In this document: positions 14,372-63,751 of the stretch, piece after piece | Layout of the letters: the number at the start of each line of letters is the position of its first letter | Numbering within the stretch: the stretch's first letter is position 1 | Source: a virus | DNA length: 64,000 nucleotides | Strand: one strand, 5' to 3' | Virus record (IMG/VR): IMGVR_UViG_3300028392_000029 | Span: 1 to 64,000 of that record | Position numbers and translations under genes: made by a program | The notes under the pieces: generated by a model | The model's input: only the letters and a program-made list of their open reading frames with translations | Told to the model about the DNA's origin: nothing | Databases searched by the model: none

Positions 14372-14400
14372 ATTATACGCTAGTTAGACTTTTATTTCAA
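14372..14400 (-). promoter_or_regulatory. sigma70-like promoter for the helicase
   Basis: On the minus strand: TTGAAA (14400-14395), exactly 17 bp, TATAAT (14377-14372), then ACAACT and the helicase ATG. It overlaps the end of the carbamoyltransferase-like gene, the same embedding style as in the early block. Confidence 0.7.
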
Positions 14401-44551: not shown

Positions 44552-44982
44552 AAGAACAGATTGTATGTAGCGGAGCATTGCTATACGCTAAATCAACACG
44601 ACGTTTTTTATTGTTACAGAAAGCACATGGTAAACACGCTGGCACATGGGGCTTAGTAGGTGGTACTACTATCAGCGGTGAAACTCCTTGGCAGGGATTA
44701 CAGCGTGAAATCACTGAAGAAATAGGAGCCATACCTCCTATTATAAAAACAATCCCATTAGAAACATTTGTCAGCAACGACAACGTGTTTAACTTTCACA
44801 CATATCTCTGTGTGATTGAAGATGAATTTATTCCTGTACTAAGCGACGAGCATAGTGCGTGGGCATGGGCTGTAATAGACCATGCACCAAAACCCTTGCA
44901 CCAAGGCCTGAGGAATAGTTTTTCAAACAAGACCATTCGTACCAAGCTACAAACGGTCTTTGATTTGATCGCTTTGATTTAA
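44533..44982 (+). CDS. Nudix hydrolase
   Basis: 149 residues. Complete Nudix box, G44-x5-E50-x7-R58-E-I-T-E-E-I-G65, in GGTTISGETPWQGLQREI then TEEIGA, so the metal-binding glutamates are all present. N-terminal strands VCSGALLYAKSTRRFLLLQK also fit. It would hydrolyse nucleoside diphosphate derivatives such as oxidised dNTPs, NADH-like compounds or capped RNA; substrate cannot be told from sequence. RBS CCAGGA within the upstream gene. Convergent with the giant fibre gene (4-nt overlap). Confidence 0.92.
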   Translation: MENRTIKEQIVCSGALLYAKSTRRFLLLQKAHGKHAGTWGLVGGTTISGETPWQGLQREITEEIGAIPPIIKTIPLETFVSNDNVFNFHTYLCVIEDEFIPVLSDEHSAWAWAVIDHAPKPLHQGLRNSFSNKTIRTKLQTVFDLIALI

Positions 44983-47900
44983 GCCTGTGCTTCACTCCAG
45001 CGCAACAACACGTTGGTATTAATGTTACCAGTACCCGACGCACGATACAAGTTAATACACAATACGTCTGGACCATTTGGATAGCAACCTCTGCCACCTA
45101 AGGTAGTATTAGTCAATTCTTTCAGTCCTGACAGATCTAAAACAGCTTCTGTACCAGGCGCCGCAATAAACGAGAATACAGTTTCACCTGGTTGCGCATA
45201 TGCCGGCAAACCAAAGGAGAACGTAATTGTTGTGTTGTTTGGTACACTAATCAACGCACTCTGTGTAAAGTTAATTCGATAATAGCTTGTGCCACCAAAC
45301 GAACTCAATACACTTACACTAGATATAGTTGTTCCAGATGGAAAGTATGTAGGAGTTACAACTAATGTACCAACACCAGCTCCATTGCTAGCAACTAGTG
45401 CTTCCCATGATGCTTGTGAGAAATACTGGAAGCTAGATGTTGCTGATACAATAGCAGGTGTTACAGCAAAGTACGGAGTTGCAGTAATAGCAATACCCGA
45501 CAATGTCGACTGCGTTGGCGCTACAGTCCAAGTTGTTCCACTACCGCTGACTATTTTTGCATCAGCTGTTAAACCTGAGCCAGTTAGAGCCATACCTGCT
45601 GAAAAAGTACCTGTAACAGTTCCACCAATAGTTAGTGTAGTTGTGCTAAAGCTACAGCTTGATGCCGTAGCATATGTAACAGCCACGCTTGAAGGTTTAC
45701 TCATTGTTAACGCATAATACGCTATGGCTGTAAATGTCACTTGAGTTCCGCTTGGAACATTTATTAGTAAAGGATTACTAAATGTTACAATATAATAACT
45801 TGTACTATTAAATGTTTGAATACTACTAATTGTACTAATTGTAGTACCAGCAGTTAGTTTGAACGGATCATTAGTGCTATTGCCTACAACAGGAGTACCA
45901 ATCGGTAATGAGTTCCACGATGCTTGTGTAAAATATAGTGTGCTAGTTGTGGCAGCGGCAGTACCACCCACTGACAATGTAATTGTAGATAAACTATTAT
46001 TGTTAACAACACGCGGAGTACCGGCTAATACTGTTCCAAAATTAGAAGCATTGACCTGTACCCCAGTTGTTGAACAACTTACCACGGTATAGGTACCATT
46101 GTAACCCGAAGCTACACCAGTTAATCCTGACACAGTAATACTATCACCATTACTATACGGAGCATAAGTCTGTGCGGCAAATGTAAATGTTGCTGTTGGG
46201 TTAGTGTAAACAATTCCAGTAATTGTTAAGTTTGACACTACTGGATTGTGTGCAGTATTAGTACCAGCACTAAATGCCACGTTATAATATGAATAACCAG
46301 CTGAGCTAAACGGTCCAGTAACACCAGTCACTGTTGTGTTAGCAGGGAAGTCTGTACTGTAGACATTGTTACCTACGCTTCCGCCTAGTGTTGTCCAACT
46401 AGTTTGTAATATAGCTATTGTAGTAGCACCACTTGCTGTTTTAAAAAATGCACTCGGCGGTATTGAAATGCTACCAATAAGTTGAGCCAGTGTTGTAGCA
46501 ATTGGTGATGGGTTTGCAATCACAGTACTAATTGTAGTACCTGCTGGAAACTTAGTTTCTGCAGAAGACAACGCATATCCAGCTTGAGCTCCTAAAGTGT
46601 CCCAGCTGGTTTTAGTTACATACACGTTAGATGAACCAATTGCTTGGTTAAACAACGCACTTGACGGCATTGCTGCCGTACCAGTTGGTGCTGAAATTAC
46701 TGTTGCTGTTGCTGTTGTAGTTGAACCACCACCTGCCCAGCTAACAGAACCGCCCGGTGCTACTTGTGTAAAGCTAGGTTGTCCACCGGCTGCCTGACTT
46801 GCTAGACCTGCCCATGTAATAGAGCCTGGATCTGTTGGATAGTTGGCAGGATTTAGTACACCCTGAACAATGATACCACCAGTACCCGAGTCTGATGTAA
46901 CTTGAATTTCTTGTAACAATAATTGCGCACGATTAATAAGTTCTCTGTCGCCCAAGTCGCCAATAATAGCGTTTGATACGCTAGGTGCTAGTCGAATTAA
47001 GAACGCTGTTGCTACTGTAGTTGAAACTTGAATACCAGTAGATGCATAGTTAAACAAATATCCTCGGTCATCATCAAAGCGTCCGTCTGTTAAGAAAGCT
47101 GAACCCCAATGACTAATGTTTGGACTAATAGTATTACTAACTAAAATAACTCCAGTATTAATTTCATGGACTGCGGCTGCGCCGGCAGTAAATGAACGAT
47201 TTGCACCACCTACATAGTTAAGCATTGGACTAGCACGTGAACAACCTGTTAAGTTGTTACCAGTCTTGCCAGTAAAACTGATTAGTTCGTTGTCAATGTA
47301 AACTTGTCCTGAATCATTTGGAAAATAAGTTCCATCGGTTAACGGTATTACTGTGGCAGTAGCAGTGATACTACTTGCTAGTTTGCTCACAGCACTTTCA
47401 TTAATAACTTCGTAACGCACAGGCATGTTACCAGTACGCATATAAGCCTCGGTGTTTACGTTTGAGTTACGAATACGATGTGCAAACACATAGTTACCGT
47501 CAGAACCGCGTAGCATAAAATCAATAAAACCAGCACCATACCATGACCATTGTAATCCGATCATCTGCATTTTGCCAATGTCTAAGTTATATCCGCTTGG
47601 GCCTGTACCATCTAAATGATCTAGGTTAAACTCGCTTTGTTTTACAATTACGTCTTGTACCAAACATGCTTTACTTGACACACAGGCAGTATTACCTCGA
47701 TAGTCAGGAGTCACTGTCATAGTTGTTTGAGTTGGTACACTGCTTACCACGTGCGTCATACCTTTGATAGTAATCCTATCTCCGGCTTTGACTTGATCTC
47801 TAAATCTTGTATTAACTCCCGTTAATGTATTACTGTTTGGACTAATACTAACAGTACCGGCTAGTTTAAGCGTACTTGATCTACGTACTACGCTAAGATA

Positions 47901-50900
47901 TTGTCCGTCATACTGCCAGAACATACCGTTTTGGTCGTCAAATGTTCCTGCACGTACTGTGGCACCATGCCACCTAATTACAGTCATCTGCGCACTAGTT
48001 GTGATAGTTGCATATATGTTAGTTAATACAGTAGTAGCTCTAACCACTAGCACACGTTCACTAATTACACTATCAACAATATAGGTGCCGTTATAGCCAG
48101 CTGTATCAACACCAACAATTCTAATGTATCCCCCTGGTTGGCAACCGTGATCAACATCGTCTGTAGTTAATGTTATAAATGATCCGACAGCAGTTCCGGT
48201 TGACGACATGCTTTGAATATCAAAACTTGGTGCAAATAACGCACCGGTAGTATACATAATACCCTTACCAGACTGATAACGAATATATTTCTTACTCATA
48301 CGAATTGCTTGCGCAGAGTGTTGCGGGCCGCCAGTACCTAAAATAACTCCACCGTCAAACGGTCTATGTTGGAAGAAACTATTTGGTCTAGCGTAAACTG
48401 TACCAATTAAAGCTGTGCCTGTATCAATAGTGCCGGCAGTTCTAGCAGTATAAATTATTGTTGTCGGTGTTGGAACTTGTTCAACAAAGAAAGGACCTTT
48501 GGCAAAAGAGTGATTTGTTCCTGTTGAGCTTATGTCGCACAACATACTCATGCCTGGCACAAGACCGTGATTTGAACTAAATGTGATTAATATTTTTGAA
48601 ATTGCCGCAGTAGTTATTGTAGTACTATCTGGTATGTTTGCTGTTACAAAATCAGTTAACGAAACTGTTGAGTAAAAAGCAATTGTAGATGCACTAACTG
48701 AGGTCCCGGAGAAAGTAAATCCGCCGATGGATCCACCAGTTACTGTTGTTATAACAATAGTTAAATCGTTAGCCGCAGTTGCACCTTCTAATGCAGTTCC
48801 TAATATTTTAATTCTATCGCCAACTTGGTAATTAGTACCTAATTGATTAGATACAACTGAATAAGATCCAGCTGACCTAGTAATGTCAAAAGTACCGCCG
48901 GTACCAACACCTACTGAGCTAGTACTTGATAACCCAGTATATGTTGCATCTGGATTTCGAGCAACTCCACTTGTTGTAAAACTGTTAATTGCTCCTTGAG
49001 CGTTTACACCTGTAACTGTAATCGTTAAATCGTTGCCAGGCGTTGTTCCGCCTAAACTAGTACCCAATACTGTAATCGTTTCGTTTAATACATAGCCAGT
49101 TCCAACGGCACTTATTAACACATTATATGCTGTGGCATTTGTAGTAACTGAAAATTTAGCATTTGTTCCTGACCCAGAAGTGCTAGATTGACCTACGTTT
49201 GTAAATGTAGCTTCGCCGCTAATACTAGTTCCAGTATAGCTTAATGTCGCTACTCCACCGCTGCCGTCAATAGTAGATACGGTTACTGTAATGTCGTTTG
49301 CTGGAGATGTTCCGCCTAATGCAGTACCAAGAATAACAATCTGTTTTCCAACAACATAACCAGTACCTGCAGTTGTTGCAGTTACAGATCCATATGCGCC
49401 GCTTGTTCGTACAACAGTGAATATTGCGCCAGAACCAACTCCAACAATATTAGTACCACCTACATTAGTATATGTTGCTGTTGATCCAATTCTAACAGTG
49501 GTCAATGGATTATTAACATAGACTGTTGTACCAATAACCGAGTTTACAAATGTAGCAGTACCTGTGCCGTTGTCTATGCCTAGGCCTTCAACAATACCGG
49601 TTGCATCAGTAACTACAAAACTAATATCATTTAAAACTGTAGTAGTAAGAACTGTAGCTGTGGCTATTAATCCACCTGTGCCAATAGTTCCCGACACTTG
49701 AGTACCAGACGGAATTCCAGTTCCAGAAATTGGTACACCTGCCGGCGGTGCAGTTCCTGTGTAGGCTATCTGTTGACTGCCCAACGGTGTAATAAATTTG
49801 CTGGTTAATGTGCCTACAGCACCGTTAGAGTTAACGCTAAAAATTGGAGTGCCAATTGATGCACCTGTATAAAAATTACCTTTGCGCAACTGTGTATAGT
49901 TGCTACTTAGTACATCTCCGTTATTTGTACCAACTTTACTAGTTGAATAATACGTAAATGTAGTTAAGGTAGGTGCAGAGAATACAATAAACGAGCCTTC
50001 AGCACGAGCGAAGCCTGCTACAGAATTAGCAAACGCTGAAATAGTAAATGGTGTTCCAACGGTTAATCCATGACTACTTTGAGTTGTAACAGTAATCAAG
50101 CTAGAACCAACACCAGCTGTACCAGATGAAGCATCTGTAACTACTGATACTACACTTATATCTGTTCCAGGCAATTCATAAATTGACGGATATCCACGTG
50201 CAATACCAATAGCCTGCCACTTAGTAGGCTGTAGTCCGTACTCAAAGTCAGCATCAAGCATTGACTGTGGTTGTGCCACACGTTGACGTTCAATGGCATC
50301 TGTACCAAAGTCATAAGGACGGGTACGCATTTCTTTATCTTCAACAAATATTTGTACATCGTCTGTAGTAGAACCTGTTGAAGTATCAATATCAAATGTA
50401 ATTGAAGTTACATAATCAGCCGTTTGTATAAACTGCGGAAAATCTAAATCTGGGAACGTACCATTACTATCGTATGTTCCAGCATATGAAACTCTCGCTG
50501 AATGTTGATTATCAGCAAAGTTATATAAAATTGTATTGCTTGTGGTATTTGTAATTAATAAAAGAGTATCAAGTTTTTGTTTACCTTGAACCTTAACTGT
50601 AGTAACACCGTTAACTAGTGTTGGTAATGCTGAAGTACCGTTTGTTATTACATTAGTTAATATTCCAGACAGTGTATTAATTCGTCCAACTGCACCTGCT
50701 TCGTATGTAATTCCTCCAATTCGAACAATTGGGACTGCTGATTGTTTTGGATTTGCATACGCGGCTTGTGGTAAGATATATGTGTTGATCAGCGTGGCAA
50801 TAAATTGATGCGTTAGTATTTCTGATCTACGATCACCGGTAATCTGAGGATAACCACTGCTCCAATATCTACTAGAAATTAAACTAATTTGATAGTTTCC

Positions 50901-51656
50901 GCCGTAGCGTAGATCATTCAAGTAGGCATTCAATACAAATCCAATATCACGTTGACATTTTGCACTGTCATAGATATAATTTGTAAATGCGTATGTTGGA
51001 TATACTATTGCTGGTAATGTACTTAATCCGCCGCTAATCACTCCGCTAATGTATGTTGACAGTCCAGTGACTTGAGTTTGCGCGGCTGTTTCTGCAACTG
51101 TTCCAGTTAAGTTTTGTGTGCTTGTTACAGGACTTTGTTGGCTAGTATATGCTACTTTCTTTAGAATATAATTGCTGATAATATTCCAAAGTTGAGTTTG
51201 TATTGCAAGCTCAACAGGTGAGTTAACAATTTGAATAACACCGCTTAGATAATACTGGCTGGCAACATAGCTAACATTTTCATTTCCGCCCCATTGCACA
51301 TCTTGAGTCAATGCTGTAACCAAGTAGCCAACATCTCGTTTGCATTTTGCAATTAACGTTGCAGTATAAGAATAATTGTAAAAGGTTGTACCAACACCTG
51401 CACTGGCTATCTGTGCAGTAGTCCAAGCTGAAATTTCATCTGCAATAAATGTAGCATTGTTTTTTAATAGTGCAACGGCATTTGGATATATGCTTTGCGC
51501 AGAATTTGCTGTTACTTGGCTGGCAATCCATGCTGTTGCTTCTTTGGTAATAAAGTTTAAATTACTGTTTATTAATGAGTACGCATTTGGATACGCATTA
51601 CTACTACTTGCAACTCCCGGTAAAAAAACATAATTCTGTATTCTTTTCTTAGCCAT
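44979..51656 (-). CDS. giant tail-fibre/baseplate protein
   Basis: 2225 residues. N-terminal tandem modules: YPNAYSLINSNLNFI...AWIASQV repeated as YPNAVALLKNNATFI...AWTTAQI, then two larger copies with CKRDVGYLVTALTQDVQWGG and CQRDIGFVLNAYLNDLRYGG. Residues about 720-990 are three beta modules (GTGYVVGKQIVILGTALGG type). The centre (YVRxS... GMFWQYDGQYLSVVRRSSTL; LRGSDGNYVFAHRIRNSN) is the conserved fibre core, and the C-terminal third is Thr/Ser/Gly-rich, ending NTNVLLRWSEAQA. Likely long or short tail fibre, or baseplate-attached spike, contacting the cell surface. Confidence 0.8.
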   Translation of the reverse strand: MAKKRIQNYVFLPGVASSSNAYPNAYSLINSNLNFITKEATAWIASQVTANSAQSIYPNAVALLKNNATFIADEISAWTTAQIASAGVGTTFYNYSYTATLIAKCKRDVGYLVTALTQDVQWGGNENVSYVASQYYLSGVIQIVNSPVELAIQTQLWNIISNYILKKVAYTSQQSPVTSTQNLTGTVAETAAQTQVTGLSTYISGVISGGLSTLPAIVYPTYAFTNYIYDSAKCQRDIGFVLNAYLNDLRYGGNYQISLISSRYWSSGYPQITGDRRSEILTHQFIATLINTYILPQAAYANPKQSAVPIVRIGGITYEAGAVGRINTLSGILTNVITNGTSALPTLVNGVTTVKVQGKQKLDTLLLITNTTSNTILYNFADNQHSARVSYAGTYDSNGTFPDLDFPQFIQTADYVTSITFDIDTSTGSTTDDVQIFVEDKEMRTRPYDFGTDAIERQRVAQPQSMLDADFEYGLQPTKWQAIGIARGYPSIYELPGTDISVVSVVTDASSGTAGVGSSLITVTTQSSHGLTVGTPFTISAFANSVAGFARAEGSFIVFSAPTLTTFTYYSTSKVGTNNGDVLSSNYTQLRKGNFYTGASIGTPIFSVNSNGAVGTLTSKFITPLGSQQIAYTGTAPPAGVPISGTGIPSGTQVSGTIGTGGLIATATVLTTTVLNDISFVVTDATGIVEGLGIDNGTGTATFVNSVIGTTVYVNNPLTTVRIGSTATYTNVGGTNIVGVGSGAIFTVVRTSGAYGSVTATTAGTGYVVGKQIVILGTALGGTSPANDITVTVSTIDGSGGVATLSYTGTSISGEATFTNVGQSSTSGSGTNAKFSVTTNATAYNVLISAVGTGYVLNETITVLGTSLGGTTPGNDLTITVTGVNAQGAINSFTTSGVARNPDATYTGLSSTSSVGVGTGGTFDITRSAGSYSVVSNQLGTNYQVGDRIKILGTALEGATAANDLTIVITTVTGGSIGGFTFSGTSVSASTIAFYSTVSLTDFVTANIPDSTTITTAAISKILITFSSNHGLVPGMSMLCDISSTGTNHSFAKGPFFVEQVPTPTTIIYTARTAGTIDTGTALIGTVYARPNSFFQHRPFDGGVILGTGGPQHSAQAIRMSKKYIRYQSGKGIMYTTGALFAPSFDIQSMSSTGTAVGSFITLTTDDVDHGCQPGGYIRIVGVDTAGYNGTYIVDSVISERVLVVRATTVLTNIYATITTSAQMTVIRWHGATVRAGTFDDQNGMFWQYDGQYLSVVRRSSTLKLAGTVSISPNSNTLTGVNTRFRDQVKAGDRITIKGMTHVVSSVPTQTTMTVTPDYRGNTACVSSKACLVQDVIVKQSEFNLDHLDGTGPSGYNLDIGKMQMIGLQWSWYGAGFIDFMLRGSDGNYVFAHRIRNSNVNTEAYMRTGNMPVRYEVINESAVSKLASSITATATVIPLTDGTYFPNDSGQVYIDNELISFTGKTGNNLTGCSRASPMLNYVGGANRSFTAGAAAVHEINTGVILVSNTISPNISHWGSAFLTDGRFDDDRGYLFNYASTGIQVSTTVATAFLIRLAPSVSNAIIGDLGDRELINRAQLLLQEIQVTSDSGTGGIIVQGVLNPANYPTDPGSITWAGLASQAAGGQPSFTQVAPGGSVSWAGGGSTTTATATVISAPTGTAAMPSSALFNQAIGSSNVYVTKTSWDTLGAQAGYALSSAETKFPAGTTISTVIANPSPIATTLAQLIGSISIPPSAFFKTASGATTIAILQTSWTTLGGSVGNNVYSTDFPANTTVTGVTGPFSSAGYSYYNVAFSAGTNTAHNPVVSNLTITGIVYTNPTATFTFAAQTYAPYSNGDSITVSGLTGVASGYNGTYTVVSCSTTGVQVNASNFGTVLAGTPRVVNNNSLSTITLSVGGTAAATTSTLYFTQASWNSLPIGTPVVGNSTNDPFKLTAGTTISTISSIQTFNSTSYYIVTFSNPLLINVPSGTQVTFTAIAYYALTMSKPSSVAVTYATASSCSFSTTTLTIGGTVTGTFSAGMALTGSGLTADAKIVSGSGTTWTVAPTQSTLSGIAITATPYFAVTPAIVSATSSFQYFSQASWEALVASNGAGVGTLVVTPTYFPSGTTISSVSVLSSFGGTSYYRINFTQSALISVPNNTTITFSFGLPAYAQPGETVFSFIAAPGTEAVLDLSGLKELTNTTLGGRGCYPNGPDVLCINLYRASGTGNINTNVLLRWSEAQA

Positions 51657-51669
51657 TCACAATTCTCCG

Positions 51670-52188
51670 TTATGCACCTAGCGCAATTGCTAGCGCAGAT
51701 GCTTTACTATCTACGTATTGTTTGTTTGTTGCCTGGGTAGACAATGTAGGGGTTGGAACTGTTATTGTTCCGTTTGCTGTAATCGATGTTGCAATTATTG
51801 ATGTAAAATTACCAGCGGCTGGTGTTGTAACACCTATTGTCATGTTGTTGATATTTCCAACACCGTTAGAAGAAATTGAAACAGTAGTTCCTGAAAACGT
51901 TAAATTAGAGCCTGCACTTATTGCTACAACACCGGTTGCACTAATAGCCACTGTGCTTCCGCCCGATATCTGTGTATTGCCGCCAACTATTAGATTACTT
52001 AGTGTTCCTAATCTTGTTAAACTACTGCTTACAATACCACTACCTAAAGTAGAACTACTAAGAACCGTAGCTCCCGATATTAAAAAATTTGATAGGGTAT
52101 TAACGTTACCATTAGAGTCAACAGTAAATCCTGGACTTTCAAACCCAGCTTCTGATCTTAGATATTTTTGATTTACAATAAATGTCAT
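51670..52188 (-). CDS. small fibre protein
   Basis: 172 residues. N-terminal MTFIVNQKYLRSEAGFESPG (fibre-joining type), a Ser/Thr/Gly/Ile-rich region of regular strands that looks like a beta-helix, and the C-terminal TLSTQATNKQYVDSKASALA, a pattern typical of tail-fibre ends before a trimerising segment. Lies 13 nt before the giant fibre gene in transcription order. Late promoter GTAAATA at 52208-52214 and RBS AGGAAT. Confidence 0.72.
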   Translation of the reverse strand: MTFIVNQKYLRSEAGFESPGFTVDSNGNVNTLSNFLISGATVLSSSTLGSGIVSSSLTRLGTLSNLIVGGNTQISGGSTVAISATGVVAISAGSNLTFSGTTVSISSNGVGNINNMTIGVTTPAAGNFTSIIATSITANGTITVPTPTLSTQATNKQYVDSKASALAIALGA

Positions 52189-52238: not shown

Positions 52239-53810
52239 TTACCTAGCCCCTGTTGTACGTCTAGGATAAGTCTGACCCGAAGCTGGTCTAAATCCATAGT
52301 TTAATTTAGGAAATGTAGATCCTGTATGAAAATATTTGTAAATTTGATCCACCTTTGGAGTACCCATACCAGTTACTGGATCCCATCCTGCTGTTGTTGT
52401 ATATCCAGTAGCGTAACCGTTACGGTTATCACCGCTGGTAATGTCATTAAATAATGCGCTGTTGGCATACCAAGTGGCCATATTAAACGGTATTCTAAAT
52501 CCTAGTAATCCAGATAATCTTGCCCATATGCCGGCAAGCAATGGAGCTGATGCGCTGGTACCGCCATATTGCACTAGACTATTGTTTACATAGAATTGAA
52601 AACCTGTGTTAGGATCGGCAGGGGCACTTATATCCGGAACTCCGCGACGCGGTAGTGCAGTTACAGCTCCAGTTGTAGTTGAAGTTTGTGTTCTAGTTGT
52701 TAGGCCGTTTTGCCAACTTGGGCGTGGAACTGTGCTACTAATTCCGCCGCCACTTCCACTCCAAGCAACTTCGCTAGTAATTTGATTACTGCCGTTAAGT
52801 ACTACAGTAGTTCCGCCTGCAGAAACCATGTATTGACTACAGCAAGTATACTGCATATTCAAATCATTTGCTCCGCTATCGCCACTACTGACAAAAACTG
52901 TTATACCCTTGGCAATACAGGCTTGTAGTGCAGTATCATATTGGGTGCCGTCGCCGATGCCCCAGCTGATATCTAGTACACAGGGGTTATTCACAGTATC
53001 AGTAGCAGTGGTATTGATATTATCTATAATATTTTGAGTGCCGCCGTTTGGTGCTGTATAGTAGGCTATTTTTGCTCGGGGTGCGGCTGCGCCGGCACAA
53101 TAGATGTCTAACATACTTTCTGCATCACTAGTGTTACTGGCTGTAGCACCATTAACATTTATTCTAGTAATTGAGGGAGCAGATAATCCAATTCGACTAA
53201 AAGTATTTGTTACATCACTGGCACTATAACCAGTAACATAGCCGCTGTAGGTCAATTCAAAAATACCAATGCACACTCCGTAGCCGTCACCTGTGGGAGA
53301 TTTGTAAGCTGTATTCATTTGAACTGGCGTCACAGCAATTGCCGGTGTCACTGCCATGGGGTCTATATTATGTTTAATTGCATGTTTAACTGCAATAAAA
53401 CTTTCATCAAATCCCGGAACTTGTTCAATCATACTTGCAATGTCTGTTGGTATCGTCGGAGTAACATCGGGCATCATAAAAGTTCTGCCGTCAGCTGTTA
53501 CATCTTGTAGCGTAATTTTAAATAGCCTGTTAAAAACTTCCACAGTTCCTTCGACTTTGACCACACTTTGTCCGTGGTGTGCTTCTGTTACTGTAAGATT
53601 ATTTGATCTAGCCCACGCTGTTACCCTATTTAGATTATCGTCTGTTGCACCAAATTGATAAACAAACTCACTGTGCCCTAAAATTGGTTCGCTCCCGGCA
53701 AGCACATTGTCAGCATACTGTTTTAAAGTCATTCCGTTTTCATGTGTATCTCTAATAAGATACAAACTAATCTTAATAACATCGGTAATATTTTTATTAA
53801 TTGAAGACAT
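52239..53810 (-). CDS. sedolisin (S53, pro-kumamolisin-type) protease
   Basis: 523 residues: propeptide (about 1-150) and peptidase domain. Catalytic set of sedolisins is complete: Glu231 and Asp235 (SDAESMLDIY), Asp311 (SSGDSGAND), Ser419 (YGGTSASAPLLAG); the calcium site is DITSGDN (Asp456) with GWDPVTGMGTP. No signal peptide. The C-terminus GFRPASGQTYPRRTTGAR probably is a virion-attachment tail. It sits between fibre genes, so it likely rides on the virion to digest surface proteins or mature fibres. Sedolisins prefer acidic pH and are rare in phages as far as I know. The minus-strand mRNA at 53688-53704 complements the early hairpin loops. Confidence 0.9.
   Translation of the reverse strand: MSSINKNITDVIKISLYLIRDTHENGMTLKQYADNVLAGSEPILGHSEFVYQFGATDDNLNRVTAWARSNNLTVTEAHHGQSVVKVEGTVEVFNRLFKITLQDVTADGRTFMMPDVTPTIPTDIASMIEQVPGFDESFIAVKHAIKHNIDPMAVTPAIAVTPVQMNTAYKSPTGDGYGVCIGIFELTYSGYVTGYSASDVTNTFSRIGLSAPSITRINVNGATASNTSDAESMLDIYCAGAAAPRAKIAYYTAPNGGTQNIIDNINTTATDTVNNPCVLDISWGIGDGTQYDTALQACIAKGITVFVSSGDSGANDLNMQYTCCSQYMVSAGGTTVVLNGSNQITSEVAWSGSGGGISSTVPRPSWQNGLTTRTQTSTTTGAVTALPRRGVPDISAPADPNTGFQFYVNNSLVQYGGTSASAPLLAGIWARLSGLLGFRIPFNMATWYANSALFNDITSGDNRNGYATGYTTTAGWDPVTGMGTPKVDQIYKYFHTGSTFPKLNYGFRPASGQTYPRRTTGAR
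53688..53704 (+). repeat. 17-nt match to the early hairpin loop
   Basis: TTCGCTCCCGGCAAGCA on the plus strand, identical to 8258-8274; antisense to codons about 36-41 of the sedolisin gene. Confidence 0.9.
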
Positions 53811-53811
53811 A

Positions 53812-54957
53812 TTAGACCTCTAGCTGAACAAATGTCAGTGTAACTGTTATTATAACACTACTAGAACCATTATTATAAATTCTTAACGGAATTGCAGTAG
53901 TTGGCGTTGGTGTTTCTGCACTATAACCAATGATCGCTGGGCTAAAATATTGTGTTGCACCTGTAGTGGTTATAGCTTCTGCAATTACGCCTGTGCCAGG
54001 TGTTGGATCTGTAGTAATACTTCGTCCAGCATCAGATGCCATAGTTGCCGCACTGTTGTAAATTGTCACCCATGCGGCACTTGATGTTTGTATGCTGTAT
54101 AATGCATAGCCTTTAAATCCAGTAATAGTATAAGTGCCACTAGTGCCTGCAGGTAATGTTATTGAATTAACTGACGCTGATGTTCGACTAACTAGGCCGT
54201 TACCTGACCCTCCGCTACTTGAAGCACTAATGACTCCACCAACAATAGTAATACTAGTACCGTCTACTTTGACACCACCTAATGTACTAGTTGTTGCCGC
54301 TGGTAGAGCATATTGTAATGCCCCAATAACGCCATTATTAATTGTAATAGTTGTTCCATCTATCTTGACACCGCCTAATACACTTGTGCTAGCTGTTGGT
54401 AGAGAGTATGAGTTAACTGTACTAATAACACCATTGCTAATAGTAATACTAGTACCGTCTACTTTAACACCGCCTAATTGTCCGCTTGAACTAATTCCTG
54501 CAATAGGTAATGAATACGAACTACTGTCAACAGTTATTGTAGCAACACCGCCTGACACTACAGCACGAGTTAATCCAGTTCCTGTAAAATTTAAAGTAGT
54601 TACAGCATTAGCAGATCCTTGAGTAACTCCTGTATTTTGTACAGTAACTCCTGATATACCTGCTTGCTGTTGAGTGCCTGAAACTGTACTAGTTAATACA
54701 CCAGTTCCGCTATTGTAACTAAACGTTATGCCAGTTGATGTGCCATTTGTTAGTAAGGCTGCGGCAACTGATTTTATATTACTAGAACTTGCACTAAGTA
54801 CATTGCTAGTGTTAATAATACTAGTACCGTCTGCGCTAAGTAGACTACCGGCAGAGCTGGCTTGAACACTCCAAGCTGATCCGTTATAGACCCATGTCGT
54901 ACCGCTATACGTGTATGTTTGATTTGTTATAGGACTTAACGGAAAACTAAAACTCAT
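53812..54957 (-). CDS. fibre protein with GGVKVDGTSITI repeats
   Basis: 381 residues. N-terminal MSFSFPLSPITNQTYTYSGT plus WVYNGSAW (fibre head domain), then a TGxTVQNTGVTQGSANAVTT block and at least three repeats of the form S-L-P-x-A-x-T-S-x-L-GGVKxDGTxITI-x-x-GVI (about residues 165-260), a beta-prism type repeat shared with the next two genes. C-terminal domain ends VTLTFVQLEV. It is a tail-fibre shaft component; the tip is likely its last 120 residues. Confidence 0.75.
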   Translation of the reverse strand: MSFSFPLSPITNQTYTYSGTTWVYNGSAWSVQASSAGSLLSADGTSIINTSNVLSASSSNIKSVAAALLTNGTSTGITFSYNSGTGVLTSTVSGTQQQAGISGVTVQNTGVTQGSANAVTTLNFTGTGLTRAVVSGGVATITVDSSSYSLPIAGISSSGQLGGVKVDGTSITISNGVISTVNSYSLPTASTSVLGGVKIDGTTITINNGVIGALQYALPAATTSTLGGVKVDGTSITIVGGVISASSSGGSGNGLVSRTSASVNSITLPAGTSGTYTITGFKGYALYSIQTSSAAWVTIYNSAATMASDAGRSITTDPTPGTGVIAEAITTTGATQYFSPAIIGYSAETPTPTTAIPLRIYNNGSSSVIITVTLTFVQLEV

Positions 54958-54972
54958 AAGATATCCTTAATA

Positions 54973-55476
54973 TTACCAAGTGCTTAAAGCCGCACGTTTC
55001 CATGTGTTTGTAGCGATACATACATAGACGTAAGTACTATCATAAGCAATTTGGCCTTGAATTCCTACACTGGTTGCAGTTGCCGGGGCAGAAATTAAGC
55101 CGCTACTGATAACACCATTGTTGATTGTTATTGTAGATCCGTCAACTTTGACACCTCCTAATACACCCAACGAACTAATACCCGCTTGCGGAAGAGTGTA
55201 GGTGTTGTTGGCTGTGATAACTCCACTGCCGTTTATAGTAATGCTAGTGCCGTCAATCTTCACTCCGCCTAATATACTGGTAGTAGCGGTGGGTAATGTA
55301 TAACTGTTGCCTGTTGGATTACTTGCATAGCTTAGACTATTCCAGGCACTGCTACCATTACCGTATTTTACTTTTAGTGTATCGGTTTCAAGACCTGGTT
55401 CACCACTAGCAAGTGTTGGGTTTACACTAGCCCAGTTTGCGGCTGTGTCTCTTCGTAATTTAATTTGTACTGACAT
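54973..55476 (-). CDS. fibre protein with Mtd-N-like head and repeats
   Basis: 167 residues. The N-terminus VQIKLRRDTAANWASVNPTL then ASGEPGLETDTLKVKYGNGS matches the N-terminal attachment domain of phage receptor-binding proteins (major tropism determinant type: R-R-D/G-T-A-x-x-W...E-x-G-x-E-T-D). It is followed by two GGVKxDGxxITI repeats and ends TNTWKRAALSTW. A short fibre or a connector between shaft proteins. RBS AGGAG. Confidence 0.78.
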   Translation of the reverse strand: MSVQIKLRRDTAANWASVNPTLASGEPGLETDTLKVKYGNGSSAWNSLSYASNPTGNSYTLPTATTSILGGVKIDGTSITINGSGVITANNTYTLPQAGISSLGVLGGVKVDGSTITINNGVISSGLISAPATATSVGIQGQIAYDSTYVYVCIATNTWKRAALSTW

Positions 55477-55491
55477 GTTTTCTCCTAATTT

Positions 55492-56502
55492 TTACCCGGC
55501 AGCTGATCCGCCATCTACACTACTTATAGATACAGAGTCTACAGGTTGTATCCATTGAGTACCGGTATATATAAACAATTGGCCAGTAATAGTACTAAGC
55601 CATAAATTTCCAGTCACTGGCGTTGATGGGGCTGTGTCACTTAAAACAGCACTACTTCCTCCGCCACTACTGCTTGTAATTGCTATGTTTGCAACACTAC
55701 CAGAAACAACAGTTGATACACCTGCTCCTGTAAAATTTAATGTAGTCACGGCGGCTGTTGAGCCAGCGGTTACACCTTCATCTTGTACAGTAACTCCAGT
55801 TATACCAGTTCCGCCAACACCACCACTTACAATGCTGGTCATAGTACCTGTACCAGCATTATATGTAAATGAAATTCCAGTTTGTGTTCCGCCAGTTAAC
55901 ATTGCGGCTGCGGCTGCTTTTATTGCGCTTGATACTGTGCTAATTTTTCCAGTAATGTCAACTGTGATTGTTGTACCATCGATAATTACTCCGCCTAAAG
56001 CTGTAGTAGTTGCTGGTGTTAAAACTGTTCCAGAACCTCCACTACCTGCTCCAGCTCCGCCGCCAACTACTGGGCTTGCAACAATTTGTGTTGGTATTGC
56101 TAACGGAAATATTGTTTCTGCGTAGGTAGCAGTAAAACTAACTTTTGCGCCTGCAAAGCCTGTATTTGGTGTTGCATATAAAATTAAATAACTGTCATTT
56201 ACAGTAGCTGATAAAGTGACAATTTGACTAGTGAGTGTAGTTCTTCCAAAGATTGTATACGCGGCACCTTCTGGGCGAGCAGTAACTAGTACATGCATAC
56301 TTTCTTTGTTATTACTATCTGCTTCTGCATGTAAAAAATACGTAGCACTGGCAAAATTTCCTACATACCAGCGATCAATCTCGATAGATGTTGAAACCGA
56401 TGGGAGCAATGTTCTATTTCCCTTGTAAGAGAAATTAGATCCGGGCAACAACGATAACGAATGTTGTGGGCCTTGTGAAAAATAAGTAGTTAGATTTAAC
56501 AT
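55492..56502 (-). CDS. virion fibre/adhesion protein
   Basis: 336 residues. N-terminal half has LTTYFSQGPQHSLSLLPGSN, STSIEIDRWYVGNFASATYF and MHVLVTARPEGAAYTIFGRT, blocks I know from virion structural proteins of aquatic T4-like phages; then a Gly-rich hinge, one GGVIIDGTTIT repeat, and a C-terminal VLSDTAPSTPVTGNLWLSTI domain. Shares the TGVTVQ-G-T-GS repeat block with the 53812 gene. First gene of the fibre transcript; late promoter CTAAATA at 56541-56547. Confidence 0.72.
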   Translation of the reverse strand: MLNLTTYFSQGPQHSLSLLPGSNFSYKGNRTLLPSVSTSIEIDRWYVGNFASATYFLHAEADSNNKESMHVLVTARPEGAAYTIFGRTTLTSQIVTLSATVNDSYLILYATPNTGFAGAKVSFTATYAETIFPLAIPTQIVASPVVGGGAGAGSGGSGTVLTPATTTALGGVIIDGTTITVDITGKISTVSSAIKAAAAAMLTGGTQTGISFTYNAGTGTMTSIVSGGVGGTGITGVTVQDEGVTAGSTAAVTTLNFTGAGVSTVVSGSVANIAITSSSGGGSSAVLSDTAPSTPVTGNLWLSTITGQLFIYTGTQWIQPVDSVSISSVDGGSAAG

Positions 56503-56617: not shown

Positions 56618-57628
56618 ATGACTCAAAGAGCAAAGGCCTTTTTTATCAACGGTGGAGCCGGCAGAACACTATGTTCAATTCCAGCCCTTGAAAAATACGC
56701 AGAAGAAAACGGCAATGATTTTATCATTGTTTGCGAAGGTGGCACCGATTTTTATAAAGGGCACCCGCTACTACATCCCAGAGCCTACGATCATTGGCAC
56801 AAAAACTTATTCGAAGAAAAACTCATTAATATGGAATTAGTAACCCCTGAACCTTATAGAGTTTGGGAATACTACAATCAAAAATGTAGTATTGCGCAGG
56901 CATTCGATATTGCTATTAACAACAAAGGAGTCCGTGAATTACCAAGACCCAATGTTAGATTGTCAAATGAAGAGCTATTTTTAGGTCATAGTCTAGTAAA
57001 AGAAGTCCGTGAAAAAACTAAAAAAGACAAAATCATTGTATTTCAACCATTTGGTCGTGGTACACACTCCGAAGGTGGCGTTATATTTGATACTTCTGGT
57101 AGAAGTTTTGAAGGCGAGCACGTTCTTAATATTGTTAAAAAGTTGCAAAAGAACTACGGGATTATAATGATGAGTGAAATTGGTATTGATTTCCAAAAAC
57201 ATGGTTGTAAAGATCCAGTAGCACACCCACAAAATGTTAGCCTACGCCAGTGGTGCTCAGTTATTGGTAACGCTGATTACTTCTTAGGTTGTGACAGCGT
57301 GGGACAACACTTGGCGTATACTCTTGATCGCCCAGCTACCGTTGTATTAGGATCGACTTTTGATATCAATGTAACTTATCCACAATACAACAAGTTTGAT
57401 GTACTTGATATGGGCGGTGATATGCGCAGATATAGTCCTATCAGAATTACCATGGACGAAGTTGCTGATCGCGGCAATGACGGTATCATGCGTATGAATG
57501 AAAAAGTAGAAGATGCCATTGTTAAGTCTGTTCAAAACGGCATTAAAACTTGGAGTCAAACGGCAATCAAAGGCCCGATCGAAGTTAAACAAATTGCCAG
57601 CAAAAAAGAAATGCCAAAAGAAGCATGA
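56618..57628 (+). CDS. GT9-like glycosyltransferase
   Basis: 336 residues, GT-B fold. N-terminal INGGAGRTLCSIPALEKYAE (Rossmann domain with Gly-rich loop), and the C-terminal nucleotide-sugar side has IIVFQPFGRGTHSEGG (about residue 138) and NADYFLGCDSVGQHLAYTLD then RPATVVLGSTF (about residues 222-253), typical of heptosyltransferase-like GT9 enzymes. It would add a sugar to an acceptor, perhaps phage protein or LPS-like glycan. Overlaps the next gene by 4 nt; starts a four-gene plus-strand operon. RBS ATAGGA. Confidence 0.72.
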   Translation: MTQRAKAFFINGGAGRTLCSIPALEKYAEENGNDFIIVCEGGTDFYKGHPLLHPRAYDHWHKNLFEEKLINMELVTPEPYRVWEYYNQKCSIAQAFDIAINNKGVRELPRPNVRLSNEELFLGHSLVKEVREKTKKDKIIVFQPFGRGTHSEGGVIFDTSGRSFEGEHVLNIVKKLQKNYGIIMMSEIGIDFQKHGCKDPVAHPQNVSLRQWCSVIGNADYFLGCDSVGQHLAYTLDRPATVVLGSTFDINVTYPQYNKFDVLDMGGDMRRYSPIRITMDEVADRGNDGIMRMNEKVEDAIVKSVQNGIKTWSQTAIKGPIEVKQIASKKEMPKEA

Positions 57629-58521
57629 GTAGACTGTTTACGTTTGGGTGTAGTTACACACATTACGCCTGGCCCAGCTGGGCAGATTTCTTAGGCCTTG
57701 AGTTTACTCAGCATGAAAATTGGGGATATCTTGGTTTAGGAAATCGTGCCATTGCAGAACGAGTCGCTGAATGTAATGTTAAAAATAAATTTACATCTGA
57801 TGATGTAGTCATAGTTCAATGGTCCAGTCATCTACGCAACGACTATCATACTGAGCGCAGGCGAATAAATTATCAGCAGTCTGGACCATTTGTAGGACAA
57901 GGTGGCTGGAAAACTGGTGGCAGTATGTTCAACTACATCAACAACACTATCTATGATAATCAATGGATCAATCAATTCTTCGACGAAAAATCATATTTTT
58001 TACACACACTTAACAACATCTTGTTAACACAAGGACTGTTAAAATCTACTGGATGTAAATGGTACATGACTAGCATGGCAGATCTTGATGCGCTAGGTAC
58101 AGACATTGGCATCATGCATGGCGAAAACATCAACAAAGCCACAGCAGGTTATAGTGTGTGGGAAGATCCCAAGTATGAATCAGTATGGGATTATAAAGAT
58201 GCAATTTGGACCAACAATGCAGAAATGTGGCTACCTAGTATAGGACCCTATGTATGGAATAAGTTTCCAGAACTGCAATGGAGTTTTCAAGATGTAAACA
58301 GTCCTAGATTAGTGTTTCCAGAATTGCATCCTAGTCCAAAGCAACATGCGGCCTATGTTACAGAAGTTATTAGACCCGAGTTAAATCTAACTGATAATAC
58401 CGCTGAATTATATGCTCCTTGGTTTTCACTAACAGATAAAGCTAAAGAATTAGCACAAGATCTTAAAACTTGTGATAGTATGCTGTCGCAATACTGGAAC
58501 TTGCCGTACATGGGGATTTAA
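57625..58521 (+). CDS. SGNH-hydrolase-like protein, copy 1
   Basis: 298 residues. LFTFGCSYTHYAWPSWADFL carries the block I serine (GCSYT); LGLGNRAIAERVAE gives the block II glycine; VIVQWSSHLRND resembles block III; and FPELHPSPKQHAAYV supplies the C-terminal His. The catalytic residues of SGNH/GDSL acyl hydrolases or sugar O-acetyl-modifying enzymes appear present, although the Asp of D-x-x-H is not seen. Clearly paralogous to the following gene. Common in T4-like marine phages next to glycosyltransferases. Confidence 0.72.
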   Translation: MSRLFTFGCSYTHYAWPSWADFLGLEFTQHENWGYLGLGNRAIAERVAECNVKNKFTSDDVVIVQWSSHLRNDYHTERRRINYQQSGPFVGQGGWKTGGSMFNYINNTIYDNQWINQFFDEKSYFLHTLNNILLTQGLLKSTGCKWYMTSMADLDALGTDIGIMHGENINKATAGYSVWEDPKYESVWDYKDAIWTNNAEMWLPSIGPYVWNKFPELQWSFQDVNSPRLVFPELHPSPKQHAAYVTEVIRPELNLTDNTAELYAPWFSLTDKAKELAQDLKTCDSMLSQYWNLPYMGI

Positions 58522-58524
58522 TAT

Positions 58525-59448
58525 ATGTCAAGACTTTTTACATTTGGATGTAGTTACACCAGTTACAGCTGGCCTACTTGGGCAGATCTCGCTGGTATGA
58601 ATTACAAACTGCATAAAAATTGGGGCATGAGTGGCCTAGGTAATCGTGCCATTGCAGAACGAGTCGCCGAAGCTCATGCCAAGTATAACTTTGGGCCGGG
58701 CGATACTGTTATAGTGCAATGGTCCAGCCACTTGCGCAATGATTGGTGGCACCAAAATCCCACAGTTAGCAAATACCCAGGCTGGCAAACTTGTGGTAGT
58801 ATTTTTAATTATATTAATGAAAAAATATACACACTAGAGTGGATTAAAACTTTCTTTTTCGAGCCTGCTTGGATCATGCATACTCTTAATCATATACTGC
58901 TGACCCAGGGATTATTGAAATCTACAGGTGCCGATTGGTATATGACCAGCATTGGTGATATTAGAAATATAGGTGCTGACATCCGTGACAATGACGGAAT
59001 TGGTGAAGACACTGGCTTTTTAACCCCTAGGGATAAAGAGATACTACATGTGCTATGGCGTAAAATTCCAGAAATGTGTGTATACGACAAACCCATATGG
59101 GGCGACAATCAGGAACACTGGTTAGAGCCTCTGGAGCTATTTGCACAAAAACATGCAGAACTTACGTTTCAGTTTGATGATACTAGAAAAAAAGGTAAAA
59201 CATTTTATGATACACATCCTAGTACACGACAACACGCCATGTGGCTTGACAATCAGTTGAAAGAGAAGTTACAATTGAGTGATGCAACTATGAAAACTTC
59301 TTGGGAAATTGCTGATAGTGTAGATGCATTACAAAAGAAGTTTAGGTTTAATAAGAATTTATTTGAGCTTAATCTAGCAAAGAGAATGGGATTTCCGGCT
59401 TCCGCCCAGCGCACACTTAGATGGCCGTTTCCCTCAGAAGGTTTTTAA
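58525..59448 (+). CDS. SGNH-hydrolase-like protein, copy 2
   Basis: 307 residues. Same blocks as copy 1 in the same order: LFTFGCSYTSYSWPTWADLA, MSGLGNRAIAERVAEAH, VIVQWSSHLRNDWWH, LNHILLTQGLLKSTGADWYM, and DTHPSTRQHAMWL. The first 80 residues are nearly identical to copy 1 while the middle and C-terminus differ, so the pair arose by duplication and has diverged in the substrate-side loops. No RBS is obvious in the 3-nt gap; probably translation continues from copy 1. Confidence 0.72.
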   Translation: MSRLFTFGCSYTSYSWPTWADLAGMNYKLHKNWGMSGLGNRAIAERVAEAHAKYNFGPGDTVIVQWSSHLRNDWWHQNPTVSKYPGWQTCGSIFNYINEKIYTLEWIKTFFFEPAWIMHTLNHILLTQGLLKSTGADWYMTSIGDIRNIGADIRDNDGIGEDTGFLTPRDKEILHVLWRKIPEMCVYDKPIWGDNQEHWLEPLELFAQKHAELTFQFDDTRKKGKTFYDTHPSTRQHAMWLDNQLKEKLQLSDATMKTSWEIADSVDALQKKFRFNKNLFELNLAKRMGFPASAQRTLRWPFPSEGF

Positions 59449-59461
59449 ACAAGGATTAATT

Positions 59462-61252
59462 ATGAACAACAAAGATATTTGGATTGCCGCGATAGCCCGT
59501 GGTCACAACGGCAGTGTATGCTTGCTTAAAAATGGCGAAATTATTTTTAGCATTGAGGAAGAACGCCTAAGCCGTAAAAAGTATGACGGTGGGCCGTTGG
59601 CTGCCATGCTAAAGATTCTAGATTACACTGATAAAATTGATTATCTAGTGATTGCACACACTCAAAAGTTAAGTGAAACTGCTGGTCGTATTGACTTTAG
59701 TGGTGATGATATCTATACCGGACTTGCTAGGAAATTAGGACTTATCAGTCGCCATGAAAATCCCTACGATCATCCGCAGGTTGTCGACATGAGTCATATA
59801 CACCACAAATTGCATGCGGCTTGTGCATTTTATCGTTCAGGTTTTGACGAAGCCGCTGCCTTAATTGTTGACGGTGCTGGTACATTTATACCATTAATGA
59901 TCAACAATGAACAAGTTATTGGCTGGGAAACTGAATCAATTTATGACTGTTCTTATCCTGCAAAGTTCACAACAGTATACAAACACATTGGATTGCGTGG
60001 ACCATTGCAAGGTACATTCATTGAAAACTTTGACAGCACTCCGCAAGATGAGCCTGGATATACACACGAAGCATTGATTACAGATCGTGCTGGTATTACT
60101 AAAGTGTATGAAGCTGTTACTAGATATTGCGGTTGGGATTCTATCGAAGCAGGTAAAACCATGGGATTATTTCCATATGGGAAAGAAAACTCAAAGATTC
60201 CTAAGTTGTTCGACGACTCAAGTATCTTTCCTTTAGCCAATCGTAATCTCATTGTACCTACATATCCTAATGGTGCTCAAGTAAACTATGGTTTATTCCC
60301 GTACTTAGACAGTGTTGATAAAGATATTACACAATTAGAAAATCGTAGAGACTTGGCATATGCTTGCCAAACACAAACTCAAGAACAGGTAGTTCGATTG
60401 ATCCGCATGGCTGTTGAAAAAACTGGTCAAAAGAATGTTGTAATTAGTGGCGGCTATGGGTTGAACTGTGTTGCTAACTATCATTATTTAGAAGCATTAA
60501 AAGAAGAAGGCATTAACATCTATGTAGAACCTATCAGCAATGATGCCGGAACTGCTATTGGTGCTGGATTGTTGTATTACAAAGATATCATTGATCAGGA
60601 CAGCAATATTGATTATACTAAAAATAGATTGTATCTAGGTTTTAAATATGATTATACTACTGATGACCTGGCCAAGTACGCAGATACCGGTGTTGAAATT
60701 ACTGGTGCGACTAACGATGATATTGTTGAGTTGTTGTTGAATAAGAACATTGTTTGTTTTTATCAAGGACGCAGTGAAAACGGGCCACGTGCATTAGGTA
60801 ATCGTAGTATATTGTTTAATCCAACTTACGAAGATGGCAAAGACTTTGTTAACGAAGTTAAACATCGTGAATACTTCCGGCCGTTTGCAGGATCTATTCT
60901 ACAAGATCATGTGCATGATTGGTTTGATCTACGCGGAATGGCAGATAGTCCATACATGATGTATGCTGTAAATTGTCAAGATGGCGTTGCAGAAAAGATC
61001 CCAAGTATTATTCACGTTGACGGTACATGCCGTATACAAACTGTTACTCAAGAAGAAAACGGTCATTATTATGATTTGATCAAAGCGTTCTATGATCGGA
61101 CAGGGGTTCCTATCTTGTTTAATACTAGTTTTAACCTAGGTGGAGATCCACTAGTAGAAACACTAGATGATGCTGTTGATACACTAGTGCGCAGTGATAT
61201 TGAATACTTGTATTTGCCGGAATTAGGCAAGTTACTTAAAGTAGCAAACTAA
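59462..61252 (+). CDS. carbamoyltransferase (NodU/TobZ family), full length
   Basis: 596 residues, full length for the family. N-terminal Kae1-like domain: ARGHNGSVCLLKNGEIIFSI, EERLSRKKYDGG, metal-binding His114-x3-His118 (IHHKLHAA), LIVDGAGTF. C-terminal YrdC-like part: FYQGRSENGPRALGNRSILF, REYFRPFAGSI and GVPILFNTSFNLGGDPLV. It would transfer a carbamoyl group from carbamoyl phosphate (via carbamoyl-AMP) to a sugar or other hydroxyl/amine. Together with the glycosyltransferase and SGNH proteins it makes a glycan- or nucleobase-modifying set. RBS AAGGAT. A bidirectional terminator begins at its stop. Confidence 0.9.
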   Translation: MNNKDIWIAAIARGHNGSVCLLKNGEIIFSIEEERLSRKKYDGGPLAAMLKILDYTDKIDYLVIAHTQKLSETAGRIDFSGDDIYTGLARKLGLISRHENPYDHPQVVDMSHIHHKLHAACAFYRSGFDEAAALIVDGAGTFIPLMINNEQVIGWETESIYDCSYPAKFTTVYKHIGLRGPLQGTFIENFDSTPQDEPGYTHEALITDRAGITKVYEAVTRYCGWDSIEAGKTMGLFPYGKENSKIPKLFDDSSIFPLANRNLIVPTYPNGAQVNYGLFPYLDSVDKDITQLENRRDLAYACQTQTQEQVVRLIRMAVEKTGQKNVVISGGYGLNCVANYHYLEALKEEGINIYVEPISNDAGTAIGAGLLYYKDIIDQDSNIDYTKNRLYLGFKYDYTTDDLAKYADTGVEITGATNDDIVELLLNKNIVCFYQGRSENGPRALGNRSILFNPTYEDGKDFVNEVKHREYFRPFAGSILQDHVHDWFDLRGMADSPYMMYAVNCQDGVAEKIPSIIHVDGTCRIQTVTQEENGHYYDLIKAFYDRTGVPILFNTSFNLGGDPLVETLDDAVDTLVRSDIEYLYLPELGKLLKVAN

Positions 61253-62223: not shown

Positions 62224-62982
62224 TTATCCGTATGTAATTGAAACTAAGCCGCCGCCACCCATGCCGCCGCACCAACAGTTTCCACCGTGTGCTTGAGCAC
62301 TTAGGCCTCCGCCGCCTGGGAATGGCGTACAACCAAACCAGCCGCCGCAACCATTACTTTGCTGGCTTCCGTTAATACAGCCGCCTGGTCCGTAAAACGG
62401 TCCAGACTGTGCTGCCGGAGCTGTGTGAGCATGTTGTTGTGGATACTGTGCGCACCATGTACTACCAGTATAACTACTGTTAATTCCGTGAATATTTACA
62501 TCTCCGCCATAAGCACAACAGCAGTATGGCGATTCTGTATTACAGGTGTAACAAGAATAGTATAACCAGCAAGTTGCATTGCCGTATGATCCGCCGTTAG
62601 CGCAGAAGTTACTTAGTCCATAACCTGTTACATAACTGGTATAGCCGCCGCAACCGATACAGTTAACTGATTGGTAAGTTGTTGATGCCGCGCATACAGT
62701 GTATGAGCATCCTGCTAGCGCAGAGCTGTATACTGTCTTAACTGAATAGCTTCCACCGCCGCCTGGCCATGACTGCATACAGCAACATGCTCCGGATCCA
62801 CCACCACCACCGCCCCACATTTCAAATGTAACAAAAGTTGACCCAGCTGGCACTACAAAGTTACAGCATTGTCCACCATTTGATCCCGAGTTAACGCTAG
62901 TGTTGTATACTAGAATTTCTGTAGGGTAATTTGTTCCGCCGGGATAATTCAGCGTGTACATTAATGATCTTAAATCTGACAT
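62224..62982 (-). CDS. Gly/Cys-rich fibre-tip protein, copy 1
   Basis: 252 residues with 22 cysteines by my count and many glycines (WGGGGGGSGACCC; PGGGGSYSVKT; GGMGGGGLVSITYG). The CCC triplets (67-69 and about 153-155) and GxG stretches suggest a polyglycine-II-like adhesin tip, as in T4-type gp38 adhesins, stabilised here by disulfides or metal. The N-terminus NYPGGTNYPTEILVYN is a short attachment domain. A second copy follows. Possible receptor-binding protein; inferred from composition and from location among fibre genes. Confidence 0.7.
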   Translation of the reverse strand: MSDLRSLMYTLNYPGGTNYPTEILVYNTSVNSGSNGGQCCNFVVPAGSTFVTFEMWGGGGGGSGACCCMQSWPGGGGSYSVKTVYSSALAGCSYTVCAASTTYQSVNCIGCGGYTSYVTGYGLSNFCANGGSYGNATCWLYYSCYTCNTESPYCCCAYGGDVNIHGINSSYTGSTWCAQYPQQHAHTAPAAQSGPFYGPGGCINGSQQSNGCGGWFGCTPFPGGGGLSAQAHGGNCWCGGMGGGGLVSITYG

Positions 62983-62995
62983 AGTTATTTGCGCC

Positions 62996-63751
62996 TTATT
63001 TGTAAGTTACTTGAACTAGGCCGCCGGATCCCCAACCACCCCAGCAACAACCGCCATAACTAATAGCTGTGCCGCCGCCTCCGCCGGGCCAAGCGTTAAA
63101 GTTACCGCTCATTGCGCAACCCATCCATGACTCGCCACATGTTGTAAATGATGTACGTGTACCAGCACCAATATAAGTAGGTGATCCCATCATGTGCCAA
63201 GTGTCGTATCCACACCATCCTTCGTGGGCGGCACCAGTAACTCCGCAAATTGCTAGGTCATATCCACATGCACATCCGCAAACGTTGGTAGCACAGTGAT
63301 AGTTACCGCCAATGGCGGCCCAGCAACAGCTCTGGCCGCCGTAGCCGCCGCTTGCGCATAGATTTAATGCATAGGTAACTGTACCAGCACCTTGTGCAAA
63401 ACTTGGGAATCCGTTAGTACCCTTGGCATCTTGAGCACAGCATCCCGAGCCGGCTGCACAAATCACATAACATTGCCCTGCAACAACTCGAATAGTTTTT
63501 CGAGCATAAGTTCCCGAGCCTCCGCCTTGACTTGGTTGTTGGCAACAACAGGCTCCGCCGCCGTCACCACCTGCGCCCCAGAGTTCAAATTTAGCCCAAA
63601 CTACGTTGGCTGGAACTACCCACAAACAACATCTACCGCCGTCTTGTACCGCGTTACCAGTGTTGCCGTTATAAACATATAACTGACCAAAGGTTTGCGG
63701 AATATTAAATGTATATCTGCTGTCTGGGAAAAACTGTGTTAAGGAACTCAT
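62996..63751 (-). CDS. Gly/Cys-rich fibre-tip protein, copy 2
   Basis: 251 residues, also 22 cysteines. Shared framework with copy 1: CCxFVVPAG/CCLWVVPAN near residue 40, FEMWGGGGGG/FELWGAGGDGG, ACCCMQ/ACCCQQ, and the C-terminal GGLVSITYG/GGLVQVTYK. The regions between differ strongly, so the copies probably present different surfaces. Same suggested role as copy 1: adhesin or receptor-binding tip. A gap of 13 nt separates the two; RBS not obvious. Confidence 0.7.
   Translation of the reverse strand: MSSLTQFFPDSRYTFNIPQTFGQLYVYNGNTGNAVQDGGRCCLWVVPANVVWAKFELWGAGGDGGGACCCQQPSQGGGSGTYARKTIRVVAGQCYVICAAGSGCCAQDAKGTNGFPSFAQGAGTVTYALNLCASGGYGGQSCCWAAIGGNYHCATNVCGCACGYDLAICGVTGAAHEGWCGYDTWHMMGSPTYIGAGTRTSFTTCGESWMGCAMSGNFNAWPGGGGGTAISYGGCCWGGWGSGGLVQVTYK

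Follow-up and report, generated by a model that had tools for sequence, protein, structure and literature searches.

A sedolisin gene coupled to a phage tail-fibre gene and a candidate C-terminal tag for docking proteases on fibre tips

Enzymes carried on phage fibres are known chiefly as depolymerases that cut sugars, borne on fibres or spikes and attacking the host surface. In T4-type phages, a separate fibre-tip protein, gp38, is encoded directly downstream of the fibre protein gp37 and sits on its tip. Phage proteases that act on virion proteins include the prohead protease gp21, of family S77. Kumamolisin and the other sedolisins (MEROPS S53, e.g. 1t1e) combine a propeptide, a typical fold, a Glu/Asp/Asp/Ser catalytic set and a calcium site. 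The subtilisin-like proteases of the Kyanoviridae (phrog_9158; YP_010670457.1 of S-H38; T4-GC 292 in P-SSM2) are S8 subtilases known as genes, with no role described in the literature searched, and cyanophage peptidase genes in syntenic places have already been noted (PMC3037559). No description of phage sedolisins, of fibre-linked subtilases or of the tag considered below was found in the open literature; what is new here is the coupling of a tagged protease to a neighbouring fibre of one particular type.

The window—the whole stretch of DNA analysed, 64,000 nucleotides—belongs to a virus record of 223,176 bases with T4-like genes (IMGVR_UViG_3300028392_000029, positions 1 to 64,000). The terminase of the record is nearest to those of Pseudomonas phages such as PA5oct (54%), while cyanophage relatives were found for a 2225-aa structural protein; psbA, a photosynthesis marker that would point to a cyanobacterial host, was not found in the record. 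The sedolisin gene lies among fibre genes, as Pfam and PHROG matches bear out, with the following features:

55492-56502, minus strand: fibre-like protein, 336 aa, at the start of the operon (clusters with other fibres)
54973-55476, minus strand: small fibre protein with an Mtd_N domain, same operon (Pfam, PHROG)
53812-54957, minus strand: fibre gene, 381 aa, its stop 1 nt ahead of the sedolisin ATG
53815-54198, minus strand: FT domain, the last 128 residues of the 381-aa fibre; proposed dock
52239-53810, minus strand: sedolisin (S53) gene, 523 aa from the ATG (Pfam, phmmer, structure match)
53406-53744, minus strand: propeptide domain, Pro-kuma_activ, residues 23-135 (Pfam PF09286, E 1e-13)
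52326-53339, minus strand: catalytic domain, residues about 158-495 (phmmer, structure comparison)
53118-53120, minus strand: codon of catalytic Glu231 (alignment to kumamolisin and relatives)
53106-53108, minus strand: codon of catalytic Asp235 (same alignment)
52878-52880, minus strand: codon of oxyanion-hole Asp311 (same alignment)
52554-52556, minus strand: codon of catalytic Ser419 (same alignment)
52242-52319, minus strand: tail at the C-terminus, residues 498-523, built of two tandem [ST][FY]P[KR]xxxGxR units
52260-52289, minus strand: tail core RPASGQTYPR, residues 508-517
51670-52188, minus strand: small fibre-like protein, 172 aa, next gene downstream of the sedolisin
44979-51656, minus strand: virion structural protein, 2225 aa, phrog_5838

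A preliminary description of this DNA, made from the letters alone, had proposed a sedolisin in a tail-fibre locus. It had the position of the gene right and left the strand unstated; the plus strand across 52239-53810 is full of stops (ORF check). Pro-kumamolisin (1t1e) is matched over residues 44-485 (E 4.3e-56, phmmer against PDB sequences), and there is also a Pfam Peptidase_S8 match over residues 232-433 (E 2.4e-9). In spite of a mean pLDDT of only 65, the AlphaFold model matches kumamolisin-As in the PDB with Z 37.6 (rmsd 2.4 over 320 residues), subtilisins scoring far lower, at Z 22-24. The four catalytic residues named in that description are all correct: in the phmmer alignment they correspond to Glu78, Asp82, Asp164 and Ser278, in the usual kumamolisin numbering, and together with Glu185 and Trp283 they are invariant across 18 relatives. 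The calcium site it claimed is present at the conserved positions Asp456, Gly475 and Asp477, its propeptide is the PF09286 match listed above, and inspection of the N-terminus agrees with it that no hydrophobic signal is evident. The protein has no PHROG match and carries the sedolisin residues instead of the Asp-His-Ser of the S8 subtilases (phrog_9158). By all the sequence and fold features examined, the enzyme is a member of S53. A chance or artefactual ORF is ruled out by the Pfam and phmmer matches and the IMG/VR relatives, and a pseudoenzyme, as far as sequence can tell, by the intact catalytic residues. Selection has been purifying, with dN/dS of 0.053 against locus L002 (dN 0 within the tail) and 0.053 to 0.112 among diverged pairs, those whose dS is at most 0.05 being uninformative.

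Unlike the kumamolisin-type sedolisins, the window enzyme is phage-encoded, without an evident signal peptide, bears a tandem C-terminal tail, has its gene coupled to a fibre gene, and falls in a clade of phage sedolisins. At least 80 related loci are found in IMG/VR (a scan with the protein itself as query gave 30 loci, and one with an alignment as query gave the best 80 of 106). Neither the PHROGs nor 50,697 phage records gave a match to the sedolisin. In a quick tree, 53 of 54 phage sedolisins form one clade (SH-aLRT 98) apart from 45 cellular ones; together with the IMG/VR loci, this rules out host contamination or a lone acquisition. The exception, L106:7728-9491, is the sole sedolisin on a viral contig that groups with those of Acetobacteraceae; it has neither tail nor FT fibre and may have been gained recently or come from a host.

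The Glu/Asp/Asp/Ser set is intact in all phage sedolisins aligned, which come in three forms: with a propeptide (about 520-570 aa), without one (about 410 aa), and longer, up to 1551 aa. The short form (L077:7908-9134, L080:7938-9173, L086:7911-9137 and others up to L105) is odd, because sedolisins are thought to need the propeptide for folding; in it Glu185 is replaced by Ser (Gly in L103), the remaining catalytic residues being intact. Among the long ones, three proteins of 1430-1551 aa have strings of Ig or cadherin-like domains fused to the sedolisin, with no tail and no FT fibre (L072:7935-12590, L073:7950-12242, L108:7953-12461).

In loci with quite different gene neighbourhoods, the gene upstream of the protease again encodes a fibre, conserved throughout only in its last 128 residues, here named FT. 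In the window, the purine-rich ribosome-binding site of the sedolisin sits inside the final fibre codons. The distance of 1 nt from fibre stop to protease start recurs in these loci; a few deviate, with spacings between -1 and 35 nt. Modelled alone, FT folds confidently as a beta-sandwich (pLDDT 96). Against solved structures, no clear relative was found: the best Z is 7.2, with many tied beta-sandwiches that include viral coat proteins and the C-terminal domain of a subtilase, and no fold family is therefore claimed. Against viral structure models, the tail fibres of cyanophages match, and the fibres of Synechococcus phages do end in FT.

The model leaves the last 26 residues of the sedolisin disordered (pLDDT about 25). 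Among the 47 dereplicated sedolisins with enough upstream sequence to judge, 38 combine an FT fibre immediately upstream with an R-P-[ST]-[ST]-G-x-x-Y-P-R tail, nine have neither, and none has one alone (Fisher p 7e-10, no more than a guide, the sequences being related). Sedolisins that lack the tail are scattered over several parts of the quick tree. The tail was absent from the last 70 residues of all 645 other ORFs of at least 150 aa, which rules it out as a general phage peptide, and from all 46 cellular sedolisins examined. The window itself has the FT fibre directly upstream and a C-terminal R-P-x-x-G-x-x-[FYW]-P-R tag. The preliminary description had seen in the tail a likely virion-attachment segment, and its exceptionless pairing with FT among the dereplicated phage sedolisins lends weight to that idea. 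The description was right on enzyme and propeptide; the digestion of S-layer or outer-membrane proteins by a virion-borne enzyme, which it proposed, is a conjecture. It overlooked the coupling to the FT fibre, the relatives and the cyanophage subtilases that share the tail. The pattern suggests, at the level of sequence, a segment that would dock the protease on the tip of the FT fibre.

Those subtilases provide a fresh test, because the motif was defined on sedolisins first. In Synechococcus phages, the gene after the FT fibre often encodes an S8 subtilase with the same tail core. Among the matches listed, which describe close relatives of the query, an [FYW]PR tag is found behind an FT fibre in 41 of 42 dereplicated subtilases and 43/43 sedolisins, mostly in the context R-P-[ST]-[ST]-G-x-x; in 14 subtilases, the sequence continues past the tag. 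The Kyanoviridae proteases therefore resemble the window sedolisin in their place behind an FT fibre and, for most, in their C-terminal tag, while belonging to another family. In P-SSM2, S-SCSM1, S-T4 and Sf-CH8, the fibre ahead of a related subtilase has a different C-terminal domain, and the subtilase lacks the tag. Partner type has switched some six to eight times along the FT tree; two or more of these switches fall on well supported branches, and one subtilase, L147, is nested among sedolisin partners in a group with full support.

At some loci, what follows the FT fibre is an untagged partner that, by Pfam, is not a protease and ends in ARTT or similar (L115:5383-7680, L117:5326-7152, L118:5388-7358, L121:5351-7681). 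Four untagged subtilases (L127:2768-10167, L128:4730-7326, L129:2115-7836, L130:1770-7572) follow fibres with another conserved C-terminal domain (YAQEYAxMYN...TPEPGxxGxxTYR), perhaps a second docking type.

What, then, is the protease for? We consider it probable that the gene encodes a functional sedolisin acting as a detachable enzymatic head of the tail fibre, docked through its tail on FT and cutting host surface proteins at adsorption. As the sequence shows by the 1-nt spacing and the ribosome-binding site within the end of the fibre gene, fibre and protease are made together. The R-P-[ST]-[ST]-G-x-x-Y-P-R tail would bind FT at the C-terminal end of the fibre, as suggested by the strict co-occurrence of the two, the same core on S8 subtilases and its loss behind another fibre domain. 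By analogy with the family, the propeptide presumably holds the enzyme inactive inside the cell, a safety catch that is not general, since the forms of about 410 aa do without it. After maturation, the enzyme at the fibre tip would cut host surface proteins during adsorption, as a protein-cutting counterpart of the polysaccharide depolymerases. The likeness to those enzymes and to gp38 on gp37 is one of anatomy; here, in contrast, it is a protease that would be mounted, on a short peptide tag. Partner swaps on the FT tree, coupling in unrelated gene neighbourhoods, the tail-less sedolisins fused to Ig or cadherin domains, the intact catalytic residues, dN/dS of about 0.05-0.11 and a separate S77 prohead protease all speak for this reading. 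Counted against it is the acid pH at which sedolisins usually work; the IMG sample numbers, looked for as a lead to the acidity of the waters, did not turn up in the open literature. More broadly, there is an even chance, in our judgement, that aquatic phages share a plug-in system: by way of one shared C-terminal tag, proteases of either family could be exchanged on the FT tip, and would make up a widespread and undescribed fibre-borne class acting on host surface proteins. The FT dock would accept sedolisins here and, in aquatic phages that include the marine cyanophages, subtilases; the gene pairs themselves are seen in the sequence.

The main rival is an assembly protease: its tail would bring it to FT, where it would cleave either the fibre or a different virion protein as the particle matures, with no action on the host. 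The autocatalytic fibre cleavage suggested in the preliminary description is likewise a rival, and a speculative one. Fibres can be matured by proteases, and a translationally coupled gene directly downstream of the fibre is in the usual place of a fibre chaperone; still, we think this fairly unlikely, because two protease families of different specificity swap behind the same FT domain. With these two specificities and an FT conserved to its very end, no obvious common cut in the fibre presents itself. Prohead maturation, moreover, has its own S77 protease, a separate gene at 94239-94706 of the record, which makes a capsid maturation role unlikely; the sedolisin is of another family than gp21 and lacks the place of that class next to the capsid genes. 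The record holds no second PF00082 match.

Might the enzyme be displayed for some other purpose than entry? On the fibres or free in the lysate, it could act at lysis on debris or decoy receptors and so free the progeny. The same display anatomy would suit this, and the timing of action cannot be read from a sequence, but the location within the operon of the fibres and the strict link to a fibre domain fit host contact best, and we regard such a role as distinctly improbable. Finally, tail and FT fibre could be hitch-hikers, inherited as one cassette without touching each other. The sequences are related and the fibre and protease genes travel together, so that the co-occurrence counts are inflated, a point that also counts against the docked protease. 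However, both protease families bear the ten-residue core, it is lost within each of them where the fibre domain differs, and tail-less forms occur in several parts of the tree; mere co-inheritance is therefore very improbable.

For the docked protease, some indication comes from cyanophage virions. A virion proteome of 45 proteins has been published for S-SCSM1 (PMC9602691), and the record of this phage lists as virion proteins its FT fibre (gp141), the partner of that fibre (gp140) and gp144, which has a subtilase domain. We counted 47 virion labels against the 45 proteins of the paper, and the labels include the unexpected proteins of that study. They support the presence in virions of FT fibres and of a sister protease, the S-SCSM1 subtilase itself being untagged. 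The pair of FT fibre and tagged protease is present in the cultured cyanophages S-H38, S-CREM1, S-WAM2 and S-RSM4, which makes the idea directly testable. A fibre-tip protease would explain what a common "hypothetical" cyanophage gene does, and would imply that picocyanobacteria and other aquatic bacteria have protein barriers or receptors that phages must cut. Enzymes could also be mounted on fibres with the tag as a short peptide and FT as a small dock.

The rest of the window holds several other features. The first fibre of the operon has 336 aa here (55492-56502) and 808 aa in the otherwise nearly identical locus L002 (L002:5888-8314), a difference that reflects fast fibre remodelling. Between fibre genes lies a block of opposite orientation (56618-61252, plus strand) that encodes a phrog_8954 protein, two paralogues (298 and 307 aa) whose family is unknown, and a Nol-like carbamoyltransferase; a second protein with a carbamoyltransferase N-domain is encoded at 14384-15325. 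At 62224-63751 on the minus strand are two adjacent paralogues, each about 250 aa long, with a very high Gly and Cys content and CCC motifs, which belong to phrog_4205, a family of unknown function.
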